DNA of 63,169 nucleotides from an uncultured Kangiella sp. (lineage in GTDB: Bacteria; Pseudomonadota; Gammaproteobacteria; Enterobacterales; Kangiellaceae): assembly GCA_950096615.1 (NCBI GenBank), contig CATNCP010000012.1, positions 1 to 63,169 on the forward strand, given 5' to 3'. The position numbers and the translations under genes are program-made. The notes beneath the pieces are model-generated. The model did not search any database. It was not told the DNA's origin and worked only from the letters and a program-made list of their open reading frames with translations. Positions within the stretch are counted from its first letter, which is position 1, and every line of letters begins with the position of its first letter. Positions 22,394 to 50,060 of this stretch are shown here, piece after piece.

Positions 22394-25300
22394 ATGAAAA
22401 TTTTTGGCAAAAGCACGATGCTTTCTAGAACTGTCACTGGTTCAGTTAAAAGGATTGCTTCCGTTTTCTTTGCGGCTTCGGCTCTTTTAATTTCAAACTC
22501 TGTCATGGCGGTCGATTATCCTTCGACCATCGATAATACCGTTAATGTGACATTACCGGCTGGTGTTATTGATAACAATACAGCAAATAATACAAATGGT
22601 GGATGTACAGTTGCAGACCCAACCGCAGCAGCTTGTGCCACTGATTCAAATGCGCTGAATGTTGTCACCCCAGAGCCTACAAAAGCTTTTTCTCCTACCC
22701 AAGTTGATTTTGGCAGCAACTCTACCCTAACCATTACGCTGACCAACACCAACGACTTTGATGCTACTTTACAATCAGATTTTGTTGACTCTCTGCCGAC
22801 AGATTTGACACTAACAACACCAGCTAATGCTTCAACAACCTGTACTGGAACGCTAGTTGCCATTGATGGCGATATTGATATTGCGCTTTTACAAGGTGCA
22901 ACGATTCCGGCGAATGGTTCTTGTACTATCACCGCTGACGTAACCAGTGGCTTTGCTGGTGATTACACTAACCAACTTCCAGCAGGCTCTCTTGATACAG
23001 GTATGGGCGTTAGTGCAGCTGCATCCGCTGACTTAACCATCGGCCCACAGGCTCTTATAGCTATTAGTGACGTCAGCCAAGTCGAGACTGATGCAGGTAC
23101 TACGACCTTTACTTACACCGTCAGTATTACCAACGGTGTGACGACCAATGCCGATGTAACATTTGATTACTTTACGACTGATGGCACAGCCCAGGCTGGC
23201 TCTGACTATGTTGCTATCGCCGATGGTTCAATTTCTGGAACCATTCCTGCAGGTGATGCCAGCACTACCATTACGACGACTATTAATGGTGACACTGTTG
23301 TTGAGCCTGATGAAACCTTTACAGTTACTTTAAGCAATATCTCTCCAAATGCAGTTGCTTCAGACGGTGTGGCGGACTCAACCATCGAGAATGATGATGC
23401 TGCAAGTGTGTCGGTTGCAGATGTCACTGTTAACGAAGGTGACGGTACTGCGACAATCAATGTGACTTTGACGGGGGATACATCTGCAGGCTTTGATGTT
23501 GACTTTGCAACTGCCGACGGCACCGCAACAGCCGGTCCACTAGCGGATTATCTTGCTAACTCAGGTACTTTAAGCTTTGCTGGTACTGATGGTGAAGTAC
23601 AAAGTATCACGGTCACTATTAACGATGACTTCGCTATTGAGGGTGATGAAACTTTCGATGTGAACTTGTCTAATATTACAGGCGGCCTTGCGACGATTAA
23701 TGACGGTACTGGCGTCGTTACCATTGAAGATAATGACTCTGTGGTATTAATTGAGTTTGATGCTGCTGCTGATAGCGCTGACGAATCAATCACTGATGAG
23801 CCGCGCTTGAGAATCCTTGGCTTCTTGCCGAACGATACGAATATAAATGTTAACGTTACAGGTGGCACGGCTACAGGTTCTGGAACGGATTACACCAATG
23901 TTGTTACGGTAACCATTCCTGCCGGAACTTATGATGGTGGCGCTGGTACATCAGTGCCGATTAATTTAACGGTGGTTGACGACAATATTCTTGAAGGTGA
24001 TGAAACCATCAACTTCGAATTGTCTAGCGTTAACCCTCGTTTAGTGTTGGGTGATGCAGACTTAGATAGTAATACCCAATCGACGAACACTTACACCATT
24101 CAAGATAATGATCCGATCACGGTCACGGTAGCGGCTAATGATGCAGCGGCAGCTGAACCTGCTGATAATGGCCAGTTCACGGTTACTTTAAGCAACCCTA
24201 ATTCAGTTGATACGACGGTTACTTACAGCATCGCAGGTACTGCAACGCCAACCAATGATTACACGCCTTTAACGGGCACAGTAACAATCCCAGCTGGCGA
24301 CACAACGGCAACGATCGACGTCACTGTGGCGGATGACACCATTGTTGAAGGTGATGAAACGGTTGTTATCACGTTAGATACAACGACCGACGGTACGATT
24401 GACGCGGGTAACGACGAAGCAACAGTAACCATCGCCGATAATGATAATGCTCAGTTAGAAGTATTACCGACAAGTGTTGTAGAAGGTGATGCTGGAACGA
24501 CAATACTGATTTATACCGTACAGTTTGCTAACGCTGTGACTACAGCTGCTGATGTCACTTTTGACTTCGCAACGTCTGATGGTACTGCAACAACAGCAGA
24601 TAATGATTATGTGGCTTTAACAGGTAGCGGAACCATTACTGCTGGTGATACCAGCACCACGGTTTCTGTAACAGTGAACGGTGATTTGACGGTTGAGGCT
24701 GACGAAACAGTCGCACTGACTATCTCTAACCCTTCAAGTAACGCAACTATCACAACGGCTAGTGCAAACGGCACTATCAACAATGATGATGCGGCTGAAG
24801 TAACTATTGTTGCTAATACAGATACTGCAGAAGGCAGTGGTATTGCCGGACAGTTTACGGTTAGTCTAAGCAGTCCGTCAGACACTGATACAGTAGTTGA
24901 TATTGTTGTTGGCGGTACGGCGACCTCAGGTTCTGACTATGCAGCTTTAGCGACGAGTGTGACGATTCCTGCGAACACGACTTCTGTTAACTTGGACGTC
25001 TTAGCGATTGATGACTCACTGCTAGAGCCAACAGAGACAGTCATCGTTACTTTAGATACTGTGACCAGCGGTAACGCAACTATCGGTACACCGGACAATG
25101 CGACGGTCAATATCACTGATAACGATGCAGCAAGCATTGCCATTGATGATGTAACCGTTGATGAAGCGGGTGGCAACGCAGTCTTCACGGTAACGCTAAC
25201 AGGCAACGTTCAAGGTGGTTTTACTGTTGACGCTGCAACTGCTGATGATACCGCAGCTGCGGGTAGCGACTATACGTCGACAACAGACACTTTAACTTTT

Positions 25301-28300
25301 GCAGGTAATAATGGCGAAACACAAACCTTCACAGTGCCAATCACTGATGATGGTATCGCTGAAGCGACAGAAACATTCTTCGCAAACTTATCAAACATTT
25401 CAAATGGTCTTGTCACTATTGCCGATGCACAAGGCGTGGGCTCGATTACTGACAATGACAACGCAAGTTTAGCGATTGATAATATCGCGGTAAATGAAGG
25501 TGATGGCACGGCAACCTTTACCGTCACCCTGACCGGTGATGTTCAAGGCGGTGTTTCCGTAGACTATGCAACAGCAGATAACACAGCTTTAGCTGGAAGT
25601 GATTACACGGCGGCAACGGGCACTTTAAATTTCAGTGGCACAGATGGTGAACAACAAACCATAGTCGTTAGTGTTACCGATGATGCTTTACTAGAAAATT
25701 CTGAAAGTTATTTTGTCAACTTATCAAACGTCGGCAATGCGGTGGTAACTTTAGCCGACGATCAAGGCATTGGCATTATTAACGATAATGATAACGCGAG
25801 CTTAGCGATTGATGATGTCACGGTTAATGAAGGCGACGGTACAGCAACCTTTACCGTAACGTTAACTGGTGATGTACAAGGCGGCGTGTCGGTCGACTTT
25901 GCAACTGCTAATGATACAGCGGAAGCGGGTAGCGATTACACAGCGAACTCTGGCACCTTAAACTTCACCGGTAATGACGCTGAAACTCAAACAGTTACAG
26001 TGACTATTGCTGATGATGCGGTTGCTGAGCCGAGTGAAACCTATTTTGTTGATTTATCCAATGTATCGAATGCTGGCGTTACTTTAAGTGATGCGCAAGG
26101 TCTAGGTACGATCAATGATAACGACAATGCAACGCTTACCATTAACAATGTAACCATTGACGAAGATGCTGGAACAGCAACTTATACTGTGACGCTTGAT
26201 AATGCGGTACAGGGCGGCAGCGTTGTTAACTACACCTTTACCGATGGCACGGCAACCGGCGGCGTAGATTACGATAACACGCCAGGCAGTGTGACTTTTG
26301 CGGGCACCGCTGGTGAAACACAAACCTTTACCGTCGCTATCATTAACGATGGTGTTTATGAAGGTGATGAGACCTTTACGGTTAATCTTGATGCAGTAAA
26401 CCCAGTTATTAATGATAACGACTCTGCAACCACGATTATCGATGATGAAGTATTGGAAGTATCAGTAACAGCGAGTGTTGCTAATGCTTCAGAGCCAACG
26501 ACTAACGGCGAGTTCACGATTAGCCTGAATACGCCAAGTGCAACTGATATCACGGTTAACTTGAGCTATGCAGGTACAGCCGCAGATCCTGCGGACTACA
26601 GCTTAGCGGGCGCAGCGGGCACGACTACGGTTGTGATCCCTGCGGGTGATACCAGCGTTACCGTTGATGTAATTGTAAATGATGATGCGACTGTTGAACC
26701 AACGGAAACAGTTATCGCGACGATCGATAGCGTGAGCGAAGGTACGATTGTTGCTGCAACGGATACCGTTAACATTGCGGATAATGATGCAGCGGCAGTG
26801 ACGGTTGAAGACGTATCAGCGGACGAAGGCGCTGGTACAGTAACCTTTACTGTCACGCTGAATAATGATGTTGCTGGTGGCACTAACGTTGACTACAGCT
26901 TCACAGACGGCACAGCAACTGGCGGTGGTACGGATTACGATAGTACTGGCGGCACAGTTACATTCGCTGGTACGGCCGGTGAAACGCAAACTTTCACTGT
27001 GGCTTACACAGACGATAACGTAACGGAAGCTGATGAAACCTTTACGGTATCTTTAAACGCTGACAATCCTAACGTAACGGATACTGATACAGCTACCGGT
27101 ACGATTGAAGATAATGACGTACTGACCATTGATATGTCTGCGACTATTGCTGCAGCGTCTGAGCCAGGCACTGACGGTGAGTTCACGATTACATTAAGCA
27201 ATCCTAGCGATACAGACACCACGGTATTTGTTAATTACGCGGGTACGGCAACGGACCCTGATGATTACACATTAGTTGGTGCTGATGGTACTACAAGCGT
27301 GGTAATTCCTGCGGGCAGCACTAGCGCAACAGTTGCAGTTGATGTAGCCGATGATGCGCTGGTTGAAGGCAGCGAAACAGTTGAAGCGACAATTACGGCA
27401 GTTAGTAACGGCAATATTGGCACGGCAACTGACACAGTGACGATTGCTGATAATGATTCACGCGTAACAGTTGAAGACGTTAGCGTTAATGAAGCTGACG
27501 GCACTGCAACCTTTACGATCACATTAGAAGAAGCCATTGCTGGCGGCACTGACGTGAACTATAGCTTCACTGATGGCACAGCAACAGGCGGCGGTACAGA
27601 TTACGACAGCACAGGCGGAACAGTGACGTTCGCGGGTACCGCGGGTGAAACACAAACTTTCACTGTTGCGATTACCAACGATGCAGTTGTAGAAGGCGAC
27701 GAAACCTTTACGGTTAACCTTGATGCGGTTAACCCGAACGTTATCGATACGGACACGGCGACAGGTACGATTGTTGATGATGACGCCTTAACGGTTTCTG
27801 TGGTTGCTACAACGCCAACGGCTCAAGAGCCAGCGACTAATGGTGAGTTTACGGTTAGCCTAAGTACCACTAGCGCAACTGATACCACGGTAACTATTGC
27901 CTACTCAGGTACAGCAACCGACAGTTCAGATTACAACTTAACGGGCGCTTCAGGCACAACCACTGTTGTGATTCCTGCTGGCTCGACTGACGCCATCGTG
28001 ACCGTTGATGTGCTTGACGACAACATTGTTGAAGGTGATGAGACGGTTATCGCGACCATCACTGCAACTGACAACGGCACTATTAGTGGTGCGACTGACA
28101 CCGTGACCATCGAGTCAGAAGATACTGCTTCGGTAACGGTTGAAGATGTAACCGTAGCGGAAGATGGTGGCAGCGCAACCTTCAGAATTACGCTTAATGG
28201 CGAAGTTGATGGTGGCACAGACGTTACTTACAGCTTCACAGATGGCTCAGCGACCGGTGGCGGCACGGATTACGATAGCACGGGTAGTACGGTTAGCTTT

Positions 28301-31300
28301 ACCGGTAATGACGGTGAATTTATTGATATCACCGTACCGATTATTGATGACGCTATCGTTGAATTTGATGAAACCTTTACCATCAACTTATCGGCGAGCA
28401 ACCCTTTAGTCGATGCTACCGACGTTGCGACAGGTACTATTACCGACGATGACACTCCGCTTGTTACATCGATCACCGCTTCAGTGCCAAACGCTTCTGA
28501 GCCGGCGACTGATGGTGAGTTCACGATCAACTTAAGCGCAGAAAGCTCAACCGATACGGTTGTTACGATTGACTACACAGGCACAGCGGCTGATCCATCG
28601 GATTACAGCCTAACCGGTGCTGCGGGTACAACGACAGTAACTATTCCTGCGGGCGACACCTCGGCCACAGTGACGGTTGATGTGGCTAATGACAATGTTG
28701 CAGAGCCGAGTGAAACGGTTATTGCCACTATTACTAGTGTGAACAACGGTAATATCGGCACTGCTTCAGATACCGTAACGATTGCTGACGACGATAATGC
28801 ATCAGTAACGGTTGAAGATGTATCGGTTAACGAAGGTGCAGGCACTGCGACCTTTACCATTACTTTAGATAACGCAGTGGCTGGCGGTACCGATGTGAAC
28901 TACAGCTTCACAGACGGCACAGCGACTGGTGGCGGTACTGATTACGATGATACTGCGGGTACGGTTACTTTTGCGGGCATCGCAGGTGAAACACAAACCT
29001 TTACCGTTAATATTATTGATGACGGTTTGGTTGAAGGCGATGAAACCTTCACGGTCAACCTTGATGCGGTAAACCCTCAGGTCACGGATACCGACACGGC
29101 GACAGGTACTATTAACGATAACGATAACTTGCAAGTGTCAGTGATTGCTAGCGTGGCAACAGCCAGCGAACCAGCGACTGATGGTGAGTTCACGGTTAGT
29201 CTGAGCGCGCCAAGCGCGACGGATACGACGGTAACCTTGAGTTATGCGGGCACAGCAGCAGATCCAGCGGATTATGGCTTAACGGGAGCTAGCGGAACAA
29301 CAACCGTGGTGATCCTTGCGGGCGATACCACGGCGACCATTGCCGTTGAAGTGGCGGATGACAATATTGTCGAAGGTGACGAGACAGTTATCGCAACGAT
29401 TGATACGGTTTCAAACGGTACTATTGATAATGCCACTGATACTGTAACGATCACCGATAACGACAACGCGACGGTAACGGTAAACGACGTAACGATTGAT
29501 GAAGCGGGCGGTAATGCCATCTTCACAGTGACGTTGAATGGCGATGTTGCCGGTGGCGTGAGCTTCGATTACACCACGAATGATGGTTCAGCGACGGTTG
29601 CTGACGGTGACTACACGGCTGTGTCGGGCACTGAAACCTTCACGGGTACGGATGGTGAGACGATTACGATTAGCGTCCCAATCCTTAACGACGCGATTGT
29701 TGAAGGCGATGAAACCTTTACTTTAGATCTGAGCAACTTGAACAACGCAGGCGTAACCTTTGCCGATGATCAAGGGCAAGGCACGATCACGGATAACGAT
29801 AACGCCACAGTTGCGATTAACGACGTCACCGTGAACGAAGCGGATGGTACAGCGGACTTTACCGTGACCTTGACGGGTGATGTTCAAGGTGGCGTAAGCT
29901 TCGATTACACCACGAATGACGGTACAGCGACGGTTGCTGACGGTGACTACACGGCGACGTCTGGCAGCGATACCTTCACCGGTACCGATGGCGAGACGAT
30001 TACAATTAGTGTGCCGATTACCGACGACGCGATTGTTGAAGGCACTGAAAACTTCACGGTTGATTTAAGCAACTTGAATAACGGTAGCGTGACCTTTAGC
30101 GATGACCAAGGTCAGGGCACCATTACGGATAACGACAATGCGACGGTAGCGATTAATGACGTTACGATTGCAGAAGATGGTATGAACGCCATCTTCACAG
30201 TGACGTTAACGGGCGAAGTTCAAGGCGGCTTTACGCTGGACTACACCACGAATGACGGCAGCGCAGCGGCACCAGGTGATTACACCACAGACGCTGGCAC
30301 GTTAACCTTCGCGGGTACTCCGGGCGAGACACAAACTATTACTGTGCCAATCATCAACGATAACACGGTAGAAGGTAATGAAACCTTCACGGTTGACCTT
30401 AGCGCTTTAAGTAACGGTAGCGTGACGTTTGCGGATGACCAAGGTCTTGGCACCATTACGGATAACGACGCAGCGACGGTGTCGGTGAATGACGTCACTG
30501 TGAACGAAGCCGATGGTACGGCCGACTTTACCGTGACTTTAACCGGTGACGTTCAAGGCGGCGTAAGCTTCGACTACACCACGAATGATGGCAGCGCGAC
30601 AGCGGGCAGTGACTACACGGCGACGTCGGGCACTGATACGTTCGCGGGTACGGACGGTGAGACGATTGTTATCAGCGTTCCGATTACTGACGATGTGTTG
30701 GTTGAAGGTACCGAAGACTTCACGTTTGATTTAAGTAACCTAACGACTGGCGGCGTGACCTTTAGCGACGACCAGGGTCTGGGTACGATTGTTGACAATG
30801 ATGTGTCTTCTGTAACGGTTGAAGATGTGACGGTGGATGAAGATGCAGGTAATGCAACCTTCACTATTACTCTAAACGGTGCCGTGGCTGGTGGTACGGA
30901 TGTTACCTACAGCTTTAGCGATAACACAGCAACTGGCGGTGGTACGGATTACGATAGTACTGCAGGCTCGGTAACGTTCGCGGGCACAGACGGCGAAACG
31001 CAAACCTTCACGGTAGCCATTACTGATGATGCGATTGTTGAGGGTGACGAAACCTTTAATGTAGCGCTTACGGCATCGAACCCATTGGTTGATGATACTG
31101 ATGGTGCGATCGGCACCATTACTGATGACGATAACTTGGTTGTGTCAATTGCAGCGACAACTGCCGCAGCAGCTGAGGGCGGCGCGGATGGTGAATTTAC
31201 CGTAAGTCTAAATGCAGTTAGCACTACCGATACGACGATTACGATTGATTACGCTGGTACAGCTATTTCTCCTGATGATTACAACCTAACGGGCGCTTCG

Positions 31301-34300: not shown

Positions 34301-37300
34301 GCTGGCACGACGACGGTTGTGATTCCAGCGGGCGACACCAGTGCGACGGTAGCGGTTGAAGTGATTGACGATACTATCGTTGAAGGAGACGAAACGGTTA
34401 TCGGTACTATCACTGCGGTATCGAACGGTAATATTAATAATGCCAGCGACACAGTAACGATTGCTGATGACGATAACTTAGTTGTTACTGTTGCAGCGTC
34501 TGATGCGACAGCAGCAGAGCCTGCGGACGATGGCGAGTTTACTTTCACGCTAAGCAACCCAAGCGCAACTGACACAACGATTACCTACACGGTAGCGGGT
34601 ACCGCAACGGCCGGTAATGATTACACCGCTTTAACTGGAACGGTAACGATTCTTGCGGGTGATACTACGGCAACTGTCTTAGTTGATACTACTGATGACA
34701 ATATCGTGGAGCCAAGCGAAACGGTAGAAATCACGATTGATACAGTGAGTAACGGTACGATTGGCGGCGCCAATACTGCGACAGTTACTATCGCTGATGA
34801 TGATACTGCAACGGTAGCGATTGATGATGTCACGGTTAACGAAGCTGACGGCAATGCCGTGTTCACAGTAACGCTAACCGGCGATGTTCAAGGCGGATTT
34901 ACGTTTGACTTCGCGACTGCGGATGGAACGGCGCTAGCGGGTAGCGACTATACAGCGACTAGCGGCACGGGAACCTTTAATGGCACCGATGGCGAAACGG
35001 TAACTATCACAGTACCGATTACTAACGATACTGTGGTTGAACCAAGTGAAGACTTCGTTGTTAACTTAACTAATCTAAGCAATGGTAGTGTGAGTTTCAC
35101 CGATGACCAAGGTCAAGCAACCATTACTGATAACGACGCATTGCAAGTTTCTATCGCAGCCACAGTAGCGGCGGCTTCTGAGCCTGCGACAGATGGTGAG
35201 TTCACGGTGACGTTGAGCACGACGAGTGCCACTGATACAACCGTAACCATTGATTACGCGGGTACTGCAACAGACGCTAGTGACTACAACCTAACGGGCG
35301 CTTCAGGCACGACGACAGTTGTGATTCCAGCAGGTAGCACGACAGCTGTTGTTACTGTTGATGTCCTTGATGATGCACTAGTAGAAGGTGATGAAACCGT
35401 TGATGCCACCATTACTGCAGTAAGCAACGGTACTATCGGTACTGCTAGCGACACGGTAACGATTGCTGACGACGATAGAAACCTTGATATTGCTCCAATC
35501 GATGAATCAACGCCTGAAAATACAGCGCACACCACAGCGCCTGCGGACTTATCGCCGGGCGATACTCCTGTAGGTGCTGTGACGTACACCATTACTGGCG
35601 GTGCGGATCAAGGCTTATTCACGATTGACCCAGCGACAGGCGAACTAACGCTAGGCGCTCAAGACTTTGAGAACCCAGCGGACGCTAATACGGACAACGT
35701 GTACGAAGTTCAAATTACAGCGACTGACTCAGCGGGTAATACTGCAACGGAAGACGCGACTGTAACGGTTACCAACGTAGCTGAGACCGCGAACTTGGAT
35801 ATGGCGCCGATTAACGAAAGCACAGCAGAGAACCAATCTCATACTACAGCTCCTGCAGATTTAACGCCTGGCGACGCACCGATTGGTACTGTGACTTACA
35901 CCATTACCGGTGGCGCAGATCAAGGCTTGTTCACGATTGACCCTGTTACTGGTGAGTTGACTATCGGACCTCAAGACTTTGAAAATCCTGTCGACGCTGA
36001 TACGGATAATGTCTACGAAGTCCAAATTACGGCGACGGATAGCGATGGAAATACTGCGGATGAATTAGCGACGGTAACTATTACCGACGTAGCTGAAACC
36101 GCGAACTTAGATATAGCGCCAATTAACGAAACGACGCCTGAGAACACGGCTCATACGACAGCGCCAGCGGACTTAACGCCGGGTGACGCTCCGATTGGTA
36201 CTGTGACTTACACCATTACCGGTGGCGCGGATCAAGGTTTATTCACGATTGATCCAGCGACGGGTGAGCTGACGCTAGGTGCTCAAGACTTTGAGAATCC
36301 AGCTGATGCGGACACCGACAACGTGTACGAAGTTCAAATCACGGCGACGGATAGTGACGGTAATACAGCGGTTGAATTAGCCACTGTTACAGTTGATAAC
36401 GTGACTGAAAACGCACCGACCGTTAATTCGCAAGTGACAAATGATGATACACCAGTGATTACGGGTACAGCGGATAGTGCTGATGACCTAACGGTTACTG
36501 TTAATGGTGTGACTTACACTGAAGGTGATGGCAACTTAGTGGACAATGGCGATGGTACTTGGACATTAACCATTCCAGCAGGAAATGAAATCCCTGACGG
36601 TACTTATGACGTCACTGCAACTACTACTGACGGCACTAACTCGCTAACTGATGCAACCACTAATGAGTTGGTCGTTGATACAGCGATTACAACGCCAACG
36701 GTAGATCCGTTAACCACGAATGATGATACGCCAGTGATTACGGGTACAGCGGATAGTGCTGATGACCTAACGGTTACTGTTAACGGTGTGACTTACACTG
36801 AAGGTGATGGCAACTTAGTTGACAATGGCGATGGCACTTGGACGTTAACGATTCCTGATGCCGACGCATTAGCTGATGGTACCTATGACGTTACTGCGAC
36901 AGTAACAGATGGCACTAACACAGCCGATGACGCCACCAATCAAGAGCTTACGGTTGATACGCAGATTACAACGCCAACGGTTGATCCTTTAACGACTACA
37001 GATGGTACGCCGGTAATTACCGGTACGGCAGATAGTGCTGATGATTTGACGGTTACTGTTAACGGTGTGACTTACACTGAAGGTGACGGCAACTTGGTCG
37101 ACAATGGTGATGGCACTTGGGCGTTAACAATCCCAGATGCGGATGTATTAACCGAAGGCACTTATGATGTGACAGCTAGCGTTGCTGATGATGCTGGTAA
37201 CTCAGCCGATGATGCAACCGCTGGCGAGTTGATTATCGAACAATCCGAGAAACCGCAACTTCGCTTGGTTAAAACGGTAAGCACGGATCAAGTACAGCTG

Positions 37301-38998
37301 GGTGACTTTGTAAGCTACACCATTACGGTAGAAAACGTTGGTACCGTTGATGTCACTGATATTCAAGTGATTGATTCACCGCCACTAGGCTTTGGTTATG
37401 TCGATAACAGTGGTGAAATTACTGACGTTAATGCTGGCAATGATGTGATAACACCTTATAAACCACTACAGTTTGAAGGTATTGATGTTGCTGAAGGCGA
37501 AACTGCTTCTATCAAGTACTTAATGCGAGTTGGCCCATCTGCGGTAGGTGCGGAACATGTGAACAGTGTGACGGCTTACTTCAATGGCGACAAAGTTAGT
37601 AACACAGCGACTGTGTCGGTATTCATGACGTCGGATCCTGACTTCGAGCAAGCGACTATCATGGGTAAAGTGTTTAACGACCGTGATGGCGACGGCTGGC
37701 AGGATGATGCAACGGCGACAGGTATTAGCGTCAGCGGTGGTATCGATGAATCTACATACATCGCAGACTCGACTACGGTTGACCGTGGCAACGGTCCACA
37801 GCCTGAAGCGGATGCAAGCGCTCCAATTAATCACGGTATTGAGCTAGGCACATTGCGTGGTCGTAACTCAGTGATGGATCCTGCCTCGAATCATACGATG
37901 GTTATTTCTCAGCTGATGAGTGAACCACGTTTCACCAACGACTTTGTCTTAACTACAGACGAAGGCACTAAGGTGATGATGGATGCCGAGGGTAATACGC
38001 GCGTTGAACACACTGGTGAAGTTGCTGATGATTTATCAGGTCAGAACCTGCGAGTTGAGCGTCACATTACACGCGTTGGCGATAGTTACCGAGTTGATTT
38101 TGTTATCAGTAACTACGGTATCTATGAGCGTGGTATTCCAGGTGTACGTATTGCGACGGTGGAAGGTTTAATTGTTGAAACCGATGCTTACGGTCGATTC
38201 CACTTGAATGCGCTAGATGTTGAAAATTACGCACGCGGTAAAAACTTCATCATGAAAGTTGACCCAGCGACGTTACCAGCAGGAAGTGTATTCACGACTG
38301 AGAACCCAAGAGTTCAACGTTTGACTCAAGGTATGTCGACACGCTTTGACTTTGGTATCAAGTTACCAGAACCCAAAGAGCCTGAGTTAGACAAGTCGAA
38401 CGCCATAGAAATCGAGTTGGGAACGGTATTATTCGATGATAACAGCATCGAAATTAAAGATAAGTACCGCTCAGCTTTAGATGATATCGCTACTAAAATT
38501 AACCAATCTAAAGGTGCGACTTTAACGATTAACGGCTATGGCGGTGGTATTCCTATCGCCCTAGACCGCGCTACGGCCTTGCGTGAAGCTATCCTCGAAA
38601 AGGTAAAAGCGAACGTTGCGCCTAACGTTAAAGTGAAAATTAATACGCATGCCGCTGAAATTGTTGATGGACGTGACTTTATTACTATTGGCGACAAGAT
38701 AGAAATCGGTCAGTTGTTCTTTGATACTGATGAATCAACAATTGGCGACAGTCAAAAAGTTGTACTAGAGACGATAGCTACATATTTAAATGAGAAGGGT
38801 GGCGGTGCTATCTGGGTGTCGGGTTATGCCGACATCAGAGGTAGCTCGGATTATAACTACCGCTTAGGTTTGAAGCGTGCAGATGCTGTGTACAGTGCAC
38901 TGAAGAAGTACTTAGGTGAAGAGTTGATTAAAAACGTAAGAATTGAGGTGGCTCCAGGCCAGTATCAAGCTTCAGCAGGAGGTGCTAGCCATGAGTAA
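22394..38998 (+). CDS. Giant secreted Calx-beta repeat protein with C-terminal OmpA-like domains
   Basis: This 5534-aa protein has a Sec signal peptide cleaved near SVMA|V (residue 39). In order it has an N-terminal DUF11/DUF7933-like domain (KAFSPTQVDFGSNSTLTITL) and about 37 Calx-beta or Calx-beta-like repeats of roughly 110 aa (about residues 225-4360), most ending in a DND or DDD. Then come three cadherin-like repeats (about 4363-4670), three Ig-like repeats (about 4673-4949), a DUF11-like domain (about 4954-5075) and an SdrD/Cna-B-like region (KVFNDRDGDGWQDD). Two OmpA-like modules end it. The second is complete (GYADIRGSSDYNYRLGLKRA); the first lacks the key Asp. The Asp-rich loops should bind calcium. 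No RTX/type I secretion signal is seen, so it may stay attached through the OmpA part, but the topology is open. Confidence 0.85.
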   Translation: MKIFGKSTMLSRTVTGSVKRIASVFFAASALLISNSVMAVDYPSTIDNTVNVTLPAGVIDNNTANNTNGGCTVADPTAAACATDSNALNVVTPEPTKAFSPTQVDFGSNSTLTITLTNTNDFDATLQSDFVDSLPTDLTLTTPANASTTCTGTLVAIDGDIDIALLQGATIPANGSCTITADVTSGFAGDYTNQLPAGSLDTGMGVSAAASADLTIGPQALIAISDVSQVETDAGTTTFTYTVSITNGVTTNADVTFDYFTTDGTAQAGSDYVAIADGSISGTIPAGDASTTITTTINGDTVVEPDETFTVTLSNISPNAVASDGVADSTIENDDAASVSVADVTVNEGDGTATINVTLTGDTSAGFDVDFATADGTATAGPLADYLANSGTLSFAGTDGEVQSITVTINDDFAIEGDETFDVNLSNITGGLATINDGTGVVTIEDNDSVVLIEFDAAADSADESITDEPRLRILGFLPNDTNINVNVTGGTATGSGTDYTNVVTVTIPAGTYDGGAGTSVPINLTVVDDNILEGDETINFELSSVNPRLVLGDADLDSNTQSTNTYTIQDNDPITVTVAANDAAAAEPADNGQFTVTLSNPNSVDTTVTYSIAGTATPTNDYTPLTGTVTIPAGDTTATIDVTVADDTIVEGDETVVITLDTTTDGTIDAGNDEATVTIADNDNAQLEVLPTSVVEGDAGTTILIYTVQFANAVTTAADVTFDFATSDGTATTADNDYVALTGSGTITAGDTSTTVSVTVNGDLTVEADETVALTISNPSSNATITTASANGTINNDDAAEVTIVANTDTAEGSGIAGQFTVSLSSPSDTDTVVDIVVGGTATSGSDYAALATSVTIPANTTSVNLDVLAIDDSLLEPTETVIVTLDTVTSGNATIGTPDNATVNITDNDAASIAIDDVTVDEAGGNAVFTVTLTGNVQGGFTVDAATADDTAAAGSDYTSTTDTLTFAGNNGETQTFTVPITDDGIAEATETFFANLSNISNGLVTIADAQGVGSITDNDNASLAIDNIAVNEGDGTATFTVTLTGDVQGGVSVDYATADNTALAGSDYTAATGTLNFSGTDGEQQTIVVSVTDDALLENSESYFVNLSNVGNAVVTLADDQGIGIINDNDNASLAIDDVTVNEGDGTATFTVTLTGDVQGGVSVDFATANDTAEAGSDYTANSGTLNFTGNDAETQTVTVTIADDAVAEPSETYFVDLSNVSNAGVTLSDAQGLGTINDNDNATLTINNVTIDEDAGTATYTVTLDNAVQGGSVVNYTFTDGTATGGVDYDNTPGSVTFAGTAGETQTFTVAIINDGVYEGDETFTVNLDAVNPVINDNDSATTIIDDEVLEVSVTASVANASEPTTNGEFTISLNTPSATDITVNLSYAGTAADPADYSLAGAAGTTTVVIPAGDTSVTVDVIVNDDATVEPTETVIATIDSVSEGTIVAATDTVNIADNDAAAVTVEDVSADEGAGTVTFTVTLNNDVAGGTNVDYSFTDGTATGGGTDYDSTGGTVTFAGTAGETQTFTVAYTDDNVTEADETFTVSLNADNPNVTDTDTATGTIEDNDVLTIDMSATIAAASEPGTDGEFTITLSNPSDTDTTVFVNYAGTATDPDDYTLVGADGTTSVVIPAGSTSATVAVDVADDALVEGSETVEATITAVSNGNIGTATDTVTIADNDSRVTVEDVSVNEADGTATFTITLEEAIAGGTDVNYSFTDGTATGGGTDYDSTGGTVTFAGTAGETQTFTVAITNDAVVEGDETFTVNLDAVNPNVIDTDTATGTIVDDDALTVSVVATTPTAQEPATNGEFTVSLSTTSATDTTVTIAYSGTATDSSDYNLTGASGTTTVVIPAGSTDAIVTVDVLDDNIVEGDETVIATITATDNGTISGATDTVTIESEDTASVTVEDVTVAEDGGSATFRITLNGEVDGGTDVTYSFTDGSATGGGTDYDSTGSTVSFTGNDGEFIDITVPIIDDAIVEFDETFTINLSASNPLVDATDVATGTITDDDTPLVTSITASVPNASEPATDGEFTINLSAESSTDTVVTIDYTGTAADPSDYSLTGAAGTTTVTIPAGDTSATVTVDVANDNVAEPSETVIATITSVNNGNIGTASDTVTIADDDNASVTVEDVSVNEGAGTATFTITLDNAVAGGTDVNYSFTDGTATGGGTDYDDTAGTVTFAGIAGETQTFTVNIIDDGLVEGDETFTVNLDAVNPQVTDTDTATGTINDNDNLQVSVIASVATASEPATDGEFTVSLSAPSATDTTVTLSYAGTAADPADYGLTGASGTTTVVILAGDTTATIAVEVADDNIVEGDETVIATIDTVSNGTIDNATDTVTITDNDNATVTVNDVTIDEAGGNAIFTVTLNGDVAGGVSFDYTTNDGSATVADGDYTAVSGTETFTGTDGETITISVPILNDAIVEGDETFTLDLSNLNNAGVTFADDQGQGTITDNDNATVAINDVTVNEADGTADFTVTLTGDVQGGVSFDYTTNDGTATVADGDYTATSGSDTFTGTDGETITISVPITDDAIVEGTENFTVDLSNLNNGSVTFSDDQGQGTITDNDNATVAINDVTIAEDGMNAIFTVTLTGEVQGGFTLDYTTNDGSAAAPGDYTTDAGTLTFAGTPGETQTITVPIINDNTVEGNETFTVDLSALSNGSVTFADDQGLGTITDNDAATVSVNDVTVNEADGTADFTVTLTGDVQGGVSFDYTTNDGSATAGSDYTATSGTDTFAGTDGETIVISVPITDDVLVEGTEDFTFDLSNLTTGGVTFSDDQGLGTIVDNDVSSVTVEDVTVDEDAGNATFTITLNGAVAGGTDVTYSFSDNTATGGGTDYDSTAGSVTFAGTDGETQTFTVAITDDAIVEGDETFNVALTASNPLVDDTDGAIGTITDDDNLVVSIAATTAAAAEGGADGEFTVSLNAVSTTDTTITIDYAGTAISPDDYNLTGASGTTTVVIPAGATSAVVNVGVVNDNLLEGDETVVATITTVSNGTIGTATDTVTIADNDNASVTVEDVTVTEAAGTATFTITLNGAVAGGTDVNYSFTDGTATGGNTDYDSTAGTVTFTGTDGETQTFTVAITDDAIVEGDETFTVNLDAVNALVTDTDTALGTITDNDNATVTVNDVTIDEAGGNAIFTVTLNGDVAGGVSFDYTTNDGSATVADGDYTAVSGTETFTGTDGETITISVPILNDAIVEGDETFTLDLSNLNNAGVTFADDQGQGTITDNDNATVAINDVTVNEADGTADFTVTLTGDVQGGVSFDYTTNDGTATVADGDYTATSGSDTFTGTDGETITISVPITDDAIVEGTENFTVDLSNLNNGSVTFSDDQGQGTITDNDNATVAINDVTIAEDGMNAIFTVTLTGEVQGGFTLDYTTNDGSAAAPGDYTTDAGTLTFAGTPGETQTITVPIINDNTVEGNETFTVDLSALSNGSVTFADDQGLGTITDNDAATVSVNDVTVNEADGTADFTVTLTGDVQGGVSFDYTTNDGSATAGSDYTATSGTDTFAGTDGETIVISVPITDDVLVEGTEDFTFDLSNLTTGGVTFSDDQGLGTINDNDNAEVTVNDVTVNENAGTATFTITLDNDVVGGTVVNYSFTDGTATGGDDFDNTAGSVTFTGTAGETQTFDVAITDDTIVEGSEDFTVNIDAVNPLVTDTDTGLGTITDNDNLEVSIVATTAAASEPNSNGQFTVSLNTTSSTDTTVTIGYTGTATDGSDYNLSGASGTTTVVIPAGATTATVAVGVIDDFITEGDETVIATISAVSNGTIATATDTVTIADNDAAAVTIEDVTVDEDAGTATFTITLDSEVAGGTDVNYSFTDGTATGGGTDYDSTAGTVTFAGTANETQTFTVAITDDALVEGNETFTVNLDAVNPLVTDTDTATGTITDDDNLQVSIAATVAAASEPGTDGEFTVTLNNASATDTTVTIDYTGTATDATDYNLTGAAGTTTVVIPAGDTSATVAVEVIDDTIVEGDETVIGTITAVSNGNINNASDTVTIADDDNLVVTVAASDATAAEPADDGEFTFTLSNPSATDTTITYTVAGTATAGNDYTALTGTVTILAGDTTATVLVDTTDDNIVEPSETVEITIDTVSNGTIGGANTATVTIADDDTATVAIDDVTVNEADGNAVFTVTLTGDVQGGFTFDFATADGTALAGSDYTATSGTGTFNGTDGETVTITVPITNDTVVEPSEDFVVNLTNLSNGSVSFTDDQGQATITDNDALQVSIAATVAAASEPATDGEFTVTLSTTSATDTTVTIDYAGTATDASDYNLTGASGTTTVVIPAGSTTAVVTVDVLDDALVEGDETVDATITAVSNGTIGTASDTVTIADDDRNLDIAPIDESTPENTAHTTAPADLSPGDTPVGAVTYTITGGADQGLFTIDPATGELTLGAQDFENPADANTDNVYEVQITATDSAGNTATEDATVTVTNVAETANLDMAPINESTAENQSHTTAPADLTPGDAPIGTVTYTITGGADQGLFTIDPVTGELTIGPQDFENPVDADTDNVYEVQITATDSDGNTADELATVTITDVAETANLDIAPINETTPENTAHTTAPADLTPGDAPIGTVTYTITGGADQGLFTIDPATGELTLGAQDFENPADADTDNVYEVQITATDSDGNTAVELATVTVDNVTENAPTVNSQVTNDDTPVITGTADSADDLTVTVNGVTYTEGDGNLVDNGDGTWTLTIPAGNEIPDGTYDVTATTTDGTNSLTDATTNELVVDTAITTPTVDPLTTNDDTPVITGTADSADDLTVTVNGVTYTEGDGNLVDNGDGTWTLTIPDADALADGTYDVTATVTDGTNTADDATNQELTVDTQITTPTVDPLTTTDGTPVITGTADSADDLTVTVNGVTYTEGDGNLVDNGDGTWALTIPDADVLTEGTYDVTASVADDAGNSADDATAGELIIEQSEKPQLRLVKTVSTDQVQLGDFVSYTITVENVGTVDVTDIQVIDSPPLGFGYVDNSGEITDVNAGNDVITPYKPLQFEGIDVAEGETASIKYLMRVGPSAVGAEHVNSVTAYFNGDKVSNTATVSVFMTSDPDFEQATIMGKVFNDRDGDGWQDDATATGISVSGGIDESTYIADSTTVDRGNGPQPEADASAPINHGIELGTLRGRNSVMDPASNHTMVISQLMSEPRFTNDFVLTTDEGTKVMMDAEGNTRVEHTGEVADDLSGQNLRVERHITRVGDSYRVDFVISNYGIYERGIPGVRIATVEGLIVETDAYGRFHLNALDVENYARGKNFIMKVDPATLPAGSVFTTENPRVQRLTQGMSTRFDFGIKLPEPKEPELDKSNAIEIELGTVLFDDNSIEIKDKYRSALDDIATKINQSKGATLTINGYGGGIPIALDRATALREAILEKVKANVAPNVKVKINTHAAEIVDGRDFITIGDKIEIGQLFFDTDESTIGDSQKVVLETIATYLNEKGGGAIWVSGYADIRGSSDYNYRLGLKRADAVYSALKKYLGEELIKNVRIEVAPGQYQASAGGASHE
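29447..30789 (+). repeat. 1343-bp intragenic duplication, copy 1
   Basis: This segment, encoding four Calx-beta repeats (residues about 2351-2799), recurs at 31784-33126 at a fixed offset of 2337 bp. By eye the two copies are practically identical at the nucleotide level, including third codon positions; one difference (C/T at 29518 and 31855) was noticed. The other repeats in the protein are diverged, so this is a recent tandem-type duplication or gene conversion. The offset equals 779 codons, so recombination between copies stays in frame. Confidence 0.9.
31784..33126 (+). repeat. 1343-bp intragenic duplication, copy 2
   Basis: Second copy of the four-repeat block at 29447-30789 (residues about 3130-3578). 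Three non-duplicated repeats lie between the copies. Identity breaks sharply at both ends: A versus C before the start, T versus C after GGGTACGAT. Confidence 0.9.
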
Positions 38999-41900
38999 GC
39001 TAATGCTAAAAAATGTGGCGCAGCCGCTATTAAGTTTTGGTTTAGGAGCAATCTTATTCAGCCTAGCGCCTGAAGCGTTCAGTGCTGAGCCTAATAAACC
39101 CACGAAAGAGTACAGCTGTGAAAACTCTGAATGTAAGACTGAAGAAGGTTTGATTTTCAGGGTTAAGAGTAAAGGTGAATCGACAGCGACAGCAGTTAAA
39201 GAATCCGAAATGGATAAAGACCGCCGCGTCGATGTTGATTATCGTGGTATTTATACCTACGACGAAGCTGGCTTTAGGCCAGACCAAAAGCGCGCAGATG
39301 TAGCTGGGAAAATGTTAGTTCAACTTCCAAACGGCGGCATCATGTGGGCAACGGAAGACCCAGCCTTAACGCCACCATCATTAGGCGTTAGCGGTGCTTC
39401 GGTAGTGGCATTTGAAGATGGCAAAGTTGTAGAGCCTGTTAACTTTAGTTATTACTCAAATTATGCGGCTTTCATTGACCGTTTAGAACTCACGGTTTTC
39501 GATGCTAACGATACTGATTTAGTCACGCCATTGGCTACTGAGTCATTAGAAGTAACTAACAATGGTCGTTACGCGTGGGATGGTGAGTTAACTTTGGATC
39601 GTCCTTTAGTTCAAGGTGACCGATTGATTTACGTTCTTCGTGCGTATGACAAAGAAGGGCGCATGGATGAAACGGCGGCAAAAGGCTTACTGCTGGTTTC
39701 TCCTGAAGAAAAGAAAAACAATATTGCCCAGTTTGCTGACCAAGTTCGTCGAGGCGAGTCCGAAGAAGAGATTTCTGATCAGCAGCTAACGAATCAGCTG
39801 ATTGAAAGCCAAACCTTTGGTCAAAATAATCTGCGTCAGCAAAATATACCGATTTACGGTTCACGCGTTCGAATCTTCGGTCAGGATATTCCTGAAAACC
39901 AACCATTAACGATTAATGGCGATATTATCCCTGTGGATTTAGAGCGTCGTTTCGTTGCTGAATATTTATTACCGGTAGGCCAGCATAACTTTAATGTGGT
40001 TATCGGTAATGATGAAGCCGAGCAAATCGTTAATGAAATGACGGTTGATGTGACTGGTGAGCATATGTTCATGGTCGCGTTAGCAGACTTAACCGCCTCT
40101 AAGAACTCTGTGTCAGACAGTATTCAAGCAGTAGACGAGGGCGATAAGTTCCAAGACGACTTCTTAATGGAAGGGCGTTTAGCATTTTACTTAAAAGGTA
40201 AAATCAAAGGTAAATATTTAATAACGGCACAGGCTGATACCCAAGAGCGTGAGTTAGACGAAATGTTTGATGGCTTCTTGGATAAAGATCCGCAGGATAT
40301 TTTCCGTCGATTAGACCCTGATCGTTATTACCCAGTGTATGGCGATGATTCCACGACTTATCGTGACGTCGATACCCAAGGCCGTTTCTACGTTCGTGTT
40401 GATTGGGACAAGAGCCAAGCCTTATGGGGTAACTTCAATACCGGTATAACCGGCAATGAATTCGCCCAGTATTCGCGCTCGCTTTATGGTGCAGCGATTA
40501 ACTGGCGTTCGCTGGATACGACTGAGCTCGGCGAAGCGAAAACCCAAGTCAAAGCATTCGCTTCTGAAGCGCAGACGGCATTAGGGCACGTAGAGTTCCT
40601 AGGAACTGGCGGTAGCTTGTATTACTTGAAGCATACAGACATTCTGCCTGGCTCTGACAAGATTACCTTAGAAGTTCGCGATAGCACTACCGGCCGCGTC
40701 GAAACGCGTGTCGACTTACAGCGTGGCGCAGATTATGAAATCGACGAGTTACAAGGTCGTATTATTCTAACTACGCCGTTGTCGCAAATTTCGCGTCGTA
40801 ATCTAGACACGATTATTCGTGATCAGCCTTTAGATGGTTTTGATAACGTCTTGTTAGTGGATTACGAATACCGTCCATCAGGTTTTGAGCCAGATAGCAC
40901 CACATTAGGTGGTCGAGCAAAAGTTTGGCTGGGCGAGCATGTGGCTGTCGGCGGTACTTTTGTTGATGAAAACCGCTCTGGTGACGATTACCAGTTAGCG
41001 GGCGTAGACGTGACGTTGCAAGCTGGACGCGGCACCTATCTTAAAGTTGAGTCAGCCGACTCGGAAGCGAATCAGGCTGCAACCTTCTTCTCGGATAACG
41101 GTGGTTTCACCTTTGATGAAGTCGTGCCCGACCCGACAGAAGAAGTGACCGATAAGAATGGCGGCGCTTACTCCATCGAAGCTCGTGCTAACTTTAAAGA
41201 GTTAGGCTGGTCAGAGCATGAATGGAAAGCTGGCGCATGGCACCGTGAAACTGATGCAGGCTTCTCGGTCGCTCGTCGTACTCTGAACGAGGAAACTACT
41301 GAGACAGGCGCAGAGGTAAACGGCTACTTTACAGACACAGTTTCGATAACCACTCGTGCCAGTAACTATGAACGTGGTGCAGACAACAGCTTGCGTCAGG
41401 CGCAAATTGGCGTGAACTATCAAATCACACCAAAGATTGATATCACCACAGAGCTACGCCAGTTAGAAGAAACGATTCTGGGCGTAGAAACGTCGGCGAC
41501 GTTGGCTGCACTACAATATAACCAGCGTATCGGTGAAACGTGGGATGTCTACGGTATTGGCCAGTTTACGCTAGAAAACGATGGCGGTGACTACGACAAT
41601 AACGATTTGTTTACCCTTGGTACGCGCTATTTATTCGGCGATCGTTCTTCAATCGGTGCTGAATATACAACAGGCCACCGTGGTGATGCAGCGAGCTTAA
41701 CTGCGGAATACCAGATCAATAACGAGCACCAAGTGTATGGTCGTTACACCTATTCGACGGATACCACGCAAAACGTGTTTGGCTCACAAATCAACGACGG
41801 TATCGTGTTAGGGCAAAAACTTCGCCTATCGAACCAAGTAACGATTTATAACGAAAGCCAACACTTCAAGGCGCCACAAGAATCAGGCATCGTGCATACG

Positions 41901-42707
41901 TTCGGTATGGACTACTACCCATCGCAAGGCTGGACCATTGGTTTCAACCTGCAAGACGGTAATCTTGATGCGCTTTCTGGGCCAGTAGACCGCCAGGCAG
42001 CGACGATTAGCGGTGGCTACCGCTCGAAAGACGCTGACTGGAGCTCGAAAATTGAATACCGCGAAGACAGCGGGGCAGAAGAGCGTGAGCAATGGTTAAC
42101 AACCAACCGCTTAACCTATCGCTTAACCGAAGACTGGCGTTTAGCTGCGCGTATTAACTACGCCGACACCGAAGACCTTATCGACCCTGCGCAAAACGCC
42201 AAGTTCGTAGAAGGTAACTTAGGTTTCGCCTACCGACCAATAGACAACACTCGTTGGGCATTGTTAGGTAAATATACTTACTTATATGACCTAAGAACGT
42301 TAGCGCAAGTCACTACAGGCGCGGACCAAAAGTCAGATATCTACTCATTTGAAGGTATCTACAGCTTTAACCCACGTTGGAAAGTGGCCGCCAAAGTCGC
42401 ACATCGCCGTGGTCAAGTCCGTGAAAATCGTGGCTCAGGCGCATGGTTCAAAAGTACCGCGAACCTATACGCAGCCCAAACTCGCTACCACATTATTAGC
42501 GAATGGGACGCGTTACTCGAGTACCGCTGGTTAGAACTTGAAGAAAGCCAAGACGAACGTGAAGGTTGGTTAGCTGGTGCGGATTACCACATCAGCAACA
42601 ACTTCAAAATCGGTGTTGGCTACAACTTCACCGAGTTCAGCGACAACTTAGCTAACCTAGACTTCAACTACGAAGGCTGGTTTATTAACTTCGTGGGTAA
42701 ATATTAA
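38991..42707 (+). CDS. Large predicted outer-membrane beta-barrel partner of the giant protein
   Basis: This 1238-aa protein has a signal peptide (about residues 1-31, ending AFSA). The ATG at 38991 has SD AGGAGG 8 bases upstream and overlaps the giant gene's last 8 bases. Residues about 30-330 form a periplasmic, beta-rich region with two Cys. Then comes a segment typical of a large OMP family (DPDRYYPVYGDDSTTYRDVD, WGNFNTGITGNEFAQYSRSL, YEIDELQGRIILTTPLSQIS). The C-terminal half is long amphipathic beta strands ending in Tyr, as in outer-membrane barrels. The function is unknown. The overlap implies cotranslation with the giant protein, perhaps as its anchor or export pore. Confidence 0.75.
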   Translation: MSKLMLKNVAQPLLSFGLGAILFSLAPEAFSAEPNKPTKEYSCENSECKTEEGLIFRVKSKGESTATAVKESEMDKDRRVDVDYRGIYTYDEAGFRPDQKRADVAGKMLVQLPNGGIMWATEDPALTPPSLGVSGASVVAFEDGKVVEPVNFSYYSNYAAFIDRLELTVFDANDTDLVTPLATESLEVTNNGRYAWDGELTLDRPLVQGDRLIYVLRAYDKEGRMDETAAKGLLLVSPEEKKNNIAQFADQVRRGESEEEISDQQLTNQLIESQTFGQNNLRQQNIPIYGSRVRIFGQDIPENQPLTINGDIIPVDLERRFVAEYLLPVGQHNFNVVIGNDEAEQIVNEMTVDVTGEHMFMVALADLTASKNSVSDSIQAVDEGDKFQDDFLMEGRLAFYLKGKIKGKYLITAQADTQERELDEMFDGFLDKDPQDIFRRLDPDRYYPVYGDDSTTYRDVDTQGRFYVRVDWDKSQALWGNFNTGITGNEFAQYSRSLYGAAINWRSLDTTELGEAKTQVKAFASEAQTALGHVEFLGTGGSLYYLKHTDILPGSDKITLEVRDSTTGRVETRVDLQRGADYEIDELQGRIILTTPLSQISRRNLDTIIRDQPLDGFDNVLLVDYEYRPSGFEPDSTTLGGRAKVWLGEHVAVGGTFVDENRSGDDYQLAGVDVTLQAGRGTYLKVESADSEANQAATFFSDNGGFTFDEVVPDPTEEVTDKNGGAYSIEARANFKELGWSEHEWKAGAWHRETDAGFSVARRTLNEETTETGAEVNGYFTDTVSITTRASNYERGADNSLRQAQIGVNYQITPKIDITTELRQLEETILGVETSATLAALQYNQRIGETWDVYGIGQFTLENDGGDYDNNDLFTLGTRYLFGDRSSIGAEYTTGHRGDAASLTAEYQINNEHQVYGRYTYSTDTTQNVFGSQINDGIVLGQKLRLSNQVTIYNESQHFKAPQESGIVHTFGMDYYPSQGWTIGFNLQDGNLDALSGPVDRQAATISGGYRSKDADWSSKIEYREDSGAEEREQWLTTNRLTYRLTEDWRLAARINYADTEDLIDPAQNAKFVEGNLGFAYRPIDNTRWALLGKYTYLYDLRTLAQVTTGADQKSDIYSFEGIYSFNPRWKVAAKVAHRRGQVRENRGSGAWFKSTANLYAAQTRYHIISEWDALLEYRWLELEESQDEREGWLAGADYHISNNFKIGVGYNFTEFSDNLANLDFNYEGWFINFVGKY

Positions 42708-42810: not shown

Positions 42811-42901
42811 GGAGAGGTGGCAGAGCGGCTGAATGCACTGGTCTTGAAAACCAGCAAGGGTTTGTAGCCCTTCGTGGGTTCAAATCCCACCCTCTCCGCC
42901 A
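42811..42901 (+). tRNA. tRNA-Ser (anticodon UGA)
   Basis: This is a 91-nt class II tRNA. The acceptor stem is GGAGAGG/CCTCTCC with GCCA end, the anticodon stem CTGGT/ACCAG holds loop CTTGAAA, and the long variable arm is AAGGGTTTGTAGCCCTT. The T-arm is GTGGGTTCAAATCCCAC. Its 3' end is the integration site of the genomic island to the right. Confidence 0.97.
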
Positions 42902-45151: not shown

Positions 45152-45236
45152 GAGGGAGTACCTTCTAAAAGCTATTGAGTGGGGTGATAGGTTGGCTCTT
45201 ACTTTCCCCTCTATTTCAGTCAAGCGGATTTCTTCA

Positions 45237-45257
45237 AAGCCACCTCTAGGGTGGCTT
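45237..45257. terminator. Hairpin between convergent island genes
   Basis: AAGCCACC and GGTGGCTT form a perfect 8-bp stem with loop TCTAG between the S9 gene and the minus-strand gene at 45311. It lacks a clear U-run, so it is a candidate bidirectional terminator. Confidence 0.5.
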
Positions 45258-45310
45258 ATCTAAACCAAATACATTGTAATCTTCGTAGAGTGGTCAGAAC
45301 CATACGGTGT

Positions 45311-45856: not shown

Positions 45857-45950
45857 ATAAAAATATCCTCTTTTTCTCTATATATTACGTTTAGGAAAAC
45901 TTAATTTGTTGTTTCTAAATTAAGTTAAAAATTTGATTTCATTTCCTTAT

Positions 45951-45985
45951 TAATAGGGAAAATCATTTTAATAGGGAAAATCATT
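45951..45985 (+). repeat. Tandem 17-bp direct repeat
   Basis: TAATAGGGAAAATCATT occurs twice with an 18-bp period, with a third, slightly altered copy (TATAGGGAAATCATT) at 46221-46235. The period is not a helical multiple. It is a possible protein-binding iteron set upstream of the MobI-like gene. Confidence 0.7.
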
Positions 45986-46353
45986 CAAATTGGCTTTTTT
46001 GAACTGTGTTCACCCTAGAGGGATAAAACATTCTTGTTCAACCTTAGTATAGGAAAAGCAGGAACTAATCCGTGTAGTTGAAAGAAATTTATTCTTGCTA
46101 AAAAGAAGCTTTTAAGTGTTTGTCATAAATTTTCATTTGTTTTACCTAATTATATGTAAATGTTTTAGTTGCTTTCGATATTGCAGTTTGTCAGAAATTT
46201 TCGTAATCTTTCTCTAATTCTATAGGGAAATCATTTATAACCTTTCCGAGGTGTTATCGGTGTTTAATTAAAGAATTTTCTTATTATCGCCACTTTCAGT
46301 GCTGCTATAGGTAATGATCTGGGTCTAGAAACGTTTTTAGTGGTGGAGTATGT

Positions 46354-47182: not shown

Positions 47183-47187
47183 AACTA

Positions 47188-50018: not shown

Positions 50019-50060
50019 CCCCATACTAAGTAGTAGGTAAAGAAATTAATAGGTACTGAA

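Follow-up and report, generated by a model that had tools for sequence, protein, structure and literature searches.

How does a cell handle a protein of more than five thousand residues that appears to be built for the cell surface, and does a neighbouring gene provide the means? This question is raised by a two-gene locus in a stretch of 63,169 nucleotides from an uncultured Kangiella sp. (GenBank assembly GCA_950096615.1, contig CATNCP010000012.1, positions 1 to 63,169 of the forward strand), the whole of which is referred to here as the window. The first gene encodes a giant repeat protein of 5534 aa and the second a predicted outer-membrane barrel protein of 1238 aa. An earlier description, made from the letters alone (the sequence-only reading), had raised the possibility that a calcium-dependent fibre is exported or displayed through a dedicated barrel. 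It had also noted an 8-nt overlap of the two genes and a strong Shine-Dalgarno sequence for the second one, and both are seen in the sequence (overlap: ATGAGTAA). Here we show that giant and barrel form a near-obligate pair. The recurrence of this pair across many bacteria, at times as a fusion, suggests a little-studied way of displaying long surface fibres.

Pairing of giant and barrel across genomes

The barrel is present in 12 of 20 Kangiella genomes, the window genome included, and in one further genome of the family. Among 61 relatives, the barrel and the C-terminus of the giant co-occur in exactly 13 genomes. We coined the name LINK for a conserved module in this C-terminus, which carries the signature GVR..GL..TD..GR.H..NF..K.D...LP.G....NP..R. 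An iterated LINK profile was used to scan 55 barrel loci (49 once the six from Kangiella, L114-L118 and L120, are set aside; certain genomes contribute two), and LINK was found in 53, in the same open reading frame (ORF) as the barrel in 21 and in a separate ORF in 32. The contigs that hold the two loci without LINK, L033 and L101, measure 4.2 and 5.5 kb.

Because the LINK profile had been iterated on these same ORFs, the test was repeated on whole genomes with a fixed core of 85 aa. Two samples were used, 369 genomes of the window's class and 398 of its phylum, and at most 2 barrel and 14 or 13 LINK candidates per genome were scored, with single misses possible. A barrel profile matches 50 of the class genomes and a wider profile 57 of the phylum genomes, many of these matches being distant. 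All genomes positive for the LINK core are also barrel-positive (35/35 in the class, 27/27 in the phylum), and at 1e-6 the core was found in none of the 319 class and 341 phylum genomes that are barrel-negative. The corresponding Fisher p values of 2e-37 (class) and 2e-26 (phylum) are overstated because the sampled genomes are related. Barrel matches above 250 bits, a threshold chosen after the data had been seen, occur in 31 class and 23 phylum genomes, with LINK in 30 and 23 of them; these are 50 distinct genomes, 49 with LINK, and in the remaining one (G273) the contig with the barrel measures 3.5 kb. When LINK shares a contig with the barrel match, it is located 298-2793 bases ahead of it, save for one reversed pair; in two drafts (G098, G395) the two are on different contigs.

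The pair is also found on plasmids. The barrel was detected in 25 of 72,556 plasmid records, in 20 of them over at least 80% of the query. These records include Alpha-, Beta- and Gammaproteobacteria and, with weak matches, cyanobacteria (classes taken in part from the records). In all nine of the 25 regions that were viewed, LINK and barrel reside in one ORF or in neighbouring ORFs.

Some observations weigh against so tight a coupling. The alignment of the LINK core came from barrel loci, its rows being supplied by 11 of the 35 class and 3 of the 27 phylum positives. A barrel match without the LINK core at 1e-6 occurs in 15 of the 50 class and 30 of the 57 phylum genomes; G273 aside, these matches are weak and distant (217.6 bits at most), and the 7 of these 44 weak genomes that were viewed as loci (L086-L089, L091-L093) each have a LINK-like module, the weakest scoring 18 bits with a broader profile. 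Genome G359 contains an orphan LINK giant (L121:10005-14000) with the full LINK signature and no barrel within 10 kb downstream, which adjoins uvrB-like and aminotransferase genes; a complete pair is present elsewhere in this genome. Apart from this one orphan, close homologues of the two genes do not commonly occur apart, and the proposed coupling of the giant to a dedicated barrel withstood this check. Coincidental neighbourhood of the two genes was rejected in view of the co-occurrence in 13 relatives and of the whole-genome tests.

The second protein as a predicted outer-membrane barrel

That the second protein is an outer-membrane barrel is a prediction which its sequence supports well; the single family matches are weak. 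The pattern of the C-terminal beta-signal is present in 34 of 34 aligned barrels, rows that were selected for reaching the end of the profile. Pfam reports DUF2490 for the window protein (33.1 bits, cut-off 29.8) and OMP_b-brl below threshold. Among 34 diverse members of the barrel family, 11 match OMP_b-brl (best 1.6e-10) and one or two each match Porin_4, YadA_anchor, OmpA_membrane and Toluene_X, with 11 Pfam families matched in all (E up to 0.01). Compared with the PDB, the family profile matches the OmpT porin (E 2e-4 across 63 positions); a PDB sequence search with the single window protein gave two poor matches, both to unrelated proteins. NCBIfam yielded nothing above cut-off for the window protein, and the conserved core of the family is covered by no Pfam family. 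In records the barrel is named 'TonB-dependent receptor', 'hypothetical protein', 'OmpA family protein' and similar; close barrels in named Kangiella records are those of K. taiwanensis (95%) and K. spongicola (89%).

A home-made count of amphipathic segments gave 35 candidate strands as compared to 14.8 +/- 2.8 in shuffled sequences at the strictest threshold. The part ahead of the barrel scores as well (10 in 345 residues), and the count therefore discriminates poorly and supports no strand number. AlphaFold2, supplied with 9 closely related sequences, returned no barrel (mean predicted local distance difference test score, pLDDT, 34.5; predicted template modelling score 0.28) and reached moderate confidence solely in the beta-rich part ahead of the barrel, a result that weighs against the display mechanism proposed below. 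Because of this low pLDDT, the barrel reading rests on the sequence evidence given above.

Signal-like N-termini, judged by hydropathy, are present in both window proteins, in 9 of 9 barrels of relatives and in 6 of the 7 giants of relatives tested; the giant of L105 has none that is clear, which counts against the proposed mechanism.

Repeats, LINK and OmpA-like domains

With a profile made from the giant's own repeats, 37 Calx-beta domains were detected, each above 50 bits, in agreement with the about 37 repeats described before for a giant of 5534 aa. A Pfam Calx-beta search of the entire 2.57-Mb genome (E <= 0.001) gave 36 matches, all within the giant ORF. Residues 201-4365 have a net charge of -691 with Lys and Arg practically absent, and 36 of the 37 domains fit each of three loosely defined acidic patterns and 34 of 37 a fourth. 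Within the Calx-beta array, a stretch of 1343 nt occurs at 29447-30789 and again at 31784-33126 (offset 2337 nt, 99.9% identical), to be explained either by a duplication of very recent date within the gene or by an effect of draft assembly.

At the C-terminus, Pfam assigns three cadherin, four Big_13, one DUF11 and one OmpA stretch (52.9 bits). The cadherin-like, Ig-like and DUF11 modules listed previously were thus recovered. The SdrD-like ones were not, since SdrD_B had no Pfam match (E <= 0.01) in either scanned end of the window giant; it was matched in giants or fused chains of several relatives. The N-terminal DUF7933 domain was missing from the earlier list. In the Pfam scan DUF7933 is the sole domain ahead of the stalk, and known adhesive domains were not matched. 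By its sequence the giant combines features of fibrillar adhesins, namely a repeat stalk (37 Calx-beta plus cadherin, Big_13 and DUF11) and a C-terminal OmpA domain as putative anchor.

Two OmpA-like domains had been described. The second one is clear and the first degenerate (23.4 vs 8.9 bits with our own OmpA profile). The second domain keeps an Asp and an Arg, which we take to be the peptidoglycan-binding residues of OmpA; OmpA domains work in the periplasm. Among relatives, the OmpA domain is located on the giant, on the barrel protein or on a third gene, or is undetected. In the rows of the barrel tree, 1-3 OmpA domains are found on the barrel protein in 13 of 34 and on the giant in three (window, L066, L105); in Vibrio campbellii and in genome G508 two OmpA domains form a third gene. 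Our profile detected no OmpA domain in six split pairs (L071, L106, L108-L111) and in the fused L068. Because of these seven loci, peptidoglycan anchoring is taken not to be universal, a further point against the proposed mechanism.

The repeats vary as well. In Kangiella relatives, giant open frames reach 8155 aa (G007), 5382 aa (G005) and 2919 aa (G016), and in the two relatives scanned with Pfam the repeats are 15 DUF11 (G016) or Big_9 and other Ig-like domains (G011), compared to the 37 Calx-beta domains of the window. The C-terminal module and the barrel stay constant while repeats and frame lengths of the Kangiella giants change. Since Calx-beta, DUF11 and Big_9 repeats are exchanged, calcium-type repeats are not the defining feature of these proteins, and such a definition was rejected when the two other Kangiella giants scanned were found to join this C-terminus to DUF11 or Big_9-type repeats. 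A calcium-dependent fibre thus fits the window giant with its 37 Calx-beta domains and its charge of -691, but as a lineage feature and not as a general trait.

Fused, split and reversed arrangements

Each of the 21 fused ORFs has its barrel C-terminal to LINK, and in the split locus L091 one ORF lies between the LINK ORF and the barrel. On a tree of 34 barrels (32 labelled), the fused or split state needs at least 3 changes and a five-state arrangement 5. The closest tree rows to the window, L105 and L066, are split likewise; the same group of 8 rows includes the single-chain L068, L069 and L080. One uninterrupted frame in the class genome G172 (L069 and L070) spans 11,777 aa; 27 DUF11 stretches were counted in the 10,000 aa that were scanned, and Big_9, OmpA and barrel are present as well. 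The order is reversed in G589 (L126:2982-17180), where the barrel comes first, directly followed by the giant with LINK at its C-terminus.

The fused L068 and L069 retain, between their OmpA-like end and the barrel, an internal stretch that resembles a signal peptide; they may be recent fusions or be processed. Judged by eye, the fused L080, L127, L077 and L086 are without a comparably hydrophobic internal stretch, and in L082, L083 and L085 there are stretches of about the same hydropathy, but they do not look like signal peptides. The barrel gene of G283 (L067:15799-19607) lies in two overlapping frames, due to a frameshift or a sequencing error.

Relation to known secretion systems and adhesins

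The sequence-only reading had stated that neither type I secretion genes nor a classic autotransporter end are present. This holds for an exporter of the LssB type and for the autotransporter barrel PF03797; other parts of type I systems were outside the search. The best match to an LssB-type exporter in the whole genome reached 312.9 bits as compared to a cut-off of 693.1 (HlyD and TolC were not searched), and the search likewise gives below-cut-off matches in 14 of 14 control genomes. Type I secretion by an LssB exporter was thus rejected. PF03797 had no match in the genome (E <= 0.001) and none in the second protein (E up to 10); a classic type Va autotransporter was rejected on this ground. 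Two-partner secretion (TPS), POTRA and ShlB families are not listed by Pfam for the barrel protein (E up to 10) or for the first 1000 aa of the giant (E up to 0.01). An inverse autotransporter of the intimin/invasin kind would have its barrel at the N-terminus, in contrast to the order in the fused ORFs described above.

The likeness to types Va and Vb consists in a Sec-exported passenger with an outer-membrane barrel, either as C-terminal domain or encoded by an adjacent gene. In contrast to these types, PF03797, POTRA/ShlB and TPS domains were not found here, the barrel measures about 855 aa, OmpA often stands between passenger and barrel, and the passenger is a string of beads instead of a beta-helix. 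The one-chain arrangement of type Va is absent from the window with its two genes and present in 21 of 53 relative loci. Judged from these features, the pair would work like an autotransporter or a two-partner system yet belongs to neither, the defining domains having been searched for and not found. In effect it may be called a 'split autotransporter', with a barrel that is much larger and matches no known translocator family. Examples of type V systems are Hap and FhaC/FHA (PMC7616799).

The closest described relative that we found is an OmpA-anchored CLIPPER adhesin of Acinetobacter silvestris, B9T28_05395, for which a DUF11/CLIPPER stalk and an OmpA-like anchoring domain have been described and a role as surface adhesin proposed (PMC12617251). 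Both proteins have a repeat stalk (CLIPPER, cadherin-like) preceding an OmpA-like domain; the accessible part of that description mentions neither a barrel partner nor a LINK signature. The giant adhesins of the RTX/LapA type and BapP likewise are large, contain Calx-beta or Big repeats and use type I secretion (PMC7616799, PMC12153261). The window giant differs from them by its dedicated barrel gene and by the absence of an LssB-type exporter above cut-off. BapP, proposed to be calcium-dependent, is described as carrying a Sec-type signal too (PMC12153261), and therefore a signal peptide alone does not separate it from the window giant. In the full-text literature covered, including the available portions of PMC10787603, PMC12282271, PMC3206015 and PMC9210967, no description of the giant-barrel pair or of LINK was found; most subscription papers and preprints are outside this coverage.

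Proposed mechanism and alternative explanations

We are moderately inclined to the view that the two genes encode one surface-display machine, in which the fibre is displayed by or through a dedicated C-terminal barrel and is often tied to peptidoglycan via OmpA. Both proteins would cross the inner membrane via Sec, each by its own signal peptide. The barrel protein, with a C-terminal signal of the kind recognized by the beta-barrel assembly machinery (BAM), would be inserted in the outer membrane as a closed barrel, its beta-sandwich domains facing the periplasm. The giant would pair with it through the conserved LINK, the OmpA domain beside LINK would hold peptidoglycan, and the repeat fibre would reach the cell exterior by way of the barrel, either through it or alongside it; once exposed, its Calx-beta part would be stiffened by calcium. 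Calx-beta domains are 4-5 nm long each, and 37 of them would make a fibre of roughly 150 nm or more. One functional unit is the most economical explanation because of the natural fusions, the exchange of OmpA across the gene boundary, the reversed order and the rarity of orphans. OmpA is, by analogy, periplasmic, and the periplasm is much too narrow for the repeats, which should therefore lie outside the cell; the membrane should then be crossed, at the dedicated barrel, by the segment that adjoins LINK.

The barrel might instead be only a partner or anchor, with the giant surfacing otherwise, e.g. by type II secretion or a pathway not yet known, and with LINK and OmpA at its end docking it to barrel and peptidoglycan. 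We regard this as rather unlikely, though it is the most serious of the alternatives. An OmpA-anchored stalk adhesin has been described in a Gram-negative bacterium (PMC12617251), and a long chain of folded repeats with a folded OmpA domain behind it needs an exit route, for which the barrel is a candidate. However, if any anchor sufficed, there would be no reason for the giant to be paired almost without exception, and fused time and again, with a large barrel, and the barrel is kept even where OmpA is undetected. The barrel could also serve as a nutrient receptor or as a porin, with the giant as its capture or protective device, which in our estimate is improbable. The product name 'TonB-dependent receptor' in L106, L108, L110 and L111 and the large outer-membrane barrel itself resemble such receptors, and in Phyllobacterium sp. 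628 (L106:11548-19126) the pair is followed by genes for a siderophore-interacting protein, exbB, exbD and a TonB-family gene, neighbours that could be due to chance or hint at an energised barrel. However, exbB/exbD adjoin the pair in only 1 of 7 annotated plasmid regions (two further regions are unannotated), and TonB plug or receptor families were found neither in the window protein (E up to 10) nor among the 11 families matched by the 34 members (E up to 0.01), so that a TonB receptor was rejected by domain content.

Slightly less probable still is an entirely periplasmic giant, acting as an envelope scaffold that links peptidoglycan and outer membrane. It would agree with the periplasmic place of OmpA domains, and a signal peptide by itself is no sign of surface exposure. 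Frames of 5534 (window), 8155 (G007) and 11,777 aa (G172) with adhesin-type repeats, however, would be many times longer than the periplasm is wide, and variable repeats and frame length over a constant C-terminus among close relatives are what is expected of exposed fibres.

If the barrel exports or displays the giant, the pair represents a widespread secretion or display system that serves proteins which are among the largest in these cells. Going further than the display machine favoured above, we tentatively put forward, as a possibility that we hold with clearly less confidence, an undescribed outer-membrane export and display route in Proteobacteria. Single-chain barrels of about 850 residues, without detected sequence kinship to known translocators, would each be dedicated to one giant multi-domain fibre, recognised by its C-terminal signature. 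Barrel and fibre would be encoded separately or as a single polypeptide of up to 11,777 residues, and either partner could carry the plug or anchor that binds peptidoglycan. The conserved pair, the defined signature and the natural fusions make the system directly testable.

Features and surroundings of the locus

The features of the two genes are compiled in Table 1.

Table 1. Positions of the giant gene, the barrel gene and their elements in the window
Feature	Position	Strand	Basis
Giant repeat protein gene, 5534 aa	22394..38998	+	ORF call, Pfam domains
Putative Sec-type signal peptide of giant (hydrophobic core, then cleavage between VMA and VDY)	22394..22510	+	Sequence, hydropathy; cleavage site by eye
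DUF7933 domain, residues 95-216	22676..23041	+	Pfam E 8.1e-29
37 Calx-beta domains, residues 222-4361	23057..35476	+	Own-repeat profile, Pfam (36), acidic patterns
Three cadherin-like repeats, spacing 312 nt	35480..36403	+	Pfam, repeat analysis
Big_13 Ig-like repeats, three copies of 279 nt	36416..37252	+	Repeat analysis; four Pfam stretches
DUF11 (CLIPPER) domain, residues 4956-5075	37259..37618	+	Pfam
LINK module, residues 5087-5327	37652..38374	+	Same locus as barrel in 53/55 loci
LINK core, 85 aa	38111..38365	+	Conserved alignment among relatives
Degenerate OmpA-like stretch, usual Asp missing	38432..38542	+	Own OmpA profile
OmpA domain keeping Asp and Arg	38717..38947	+	Pfam, own profile
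Shine-Dalgarno sequence AGGAGG of barrel gene	38977..38982	+	8 nt ahead of ATG 38991
Barrel gene, 1238 aa	38991..42707	+	ORF from ATG at 38991
Putative Sec-type signal peptide of barrel protein (cleavage between AFSA and EPN)	38991..39086	+	Sequence, hydropathy; cleavage site by eye
Beta-rich, presumably periplasmic domain preceding barrel	39378..39728	+	Best-modelled part, block pLDDT about 60-84
Predicted outer-membrane barrel region, about 855 aa	40140..42704	+	Family matches, beta-signal; left border approximate
C-terminal beta-signal YEGWFINFVGKY	42669..42704	+	Pattern common to aligned family members

Directly after the barrel gene, a tRNA-Ser is located at 42811-42901. It is followed at 43070-56801 by a peptidase S9 gene and by genes for SRAP, a Y-family polymerase, a phage-type integrase and type I restriction-modification, which suggests that the region downstream of the barrel gene is island-like. 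Judged by eye, the ORFs adjoining the barrel vary among several Kangiella relatives.

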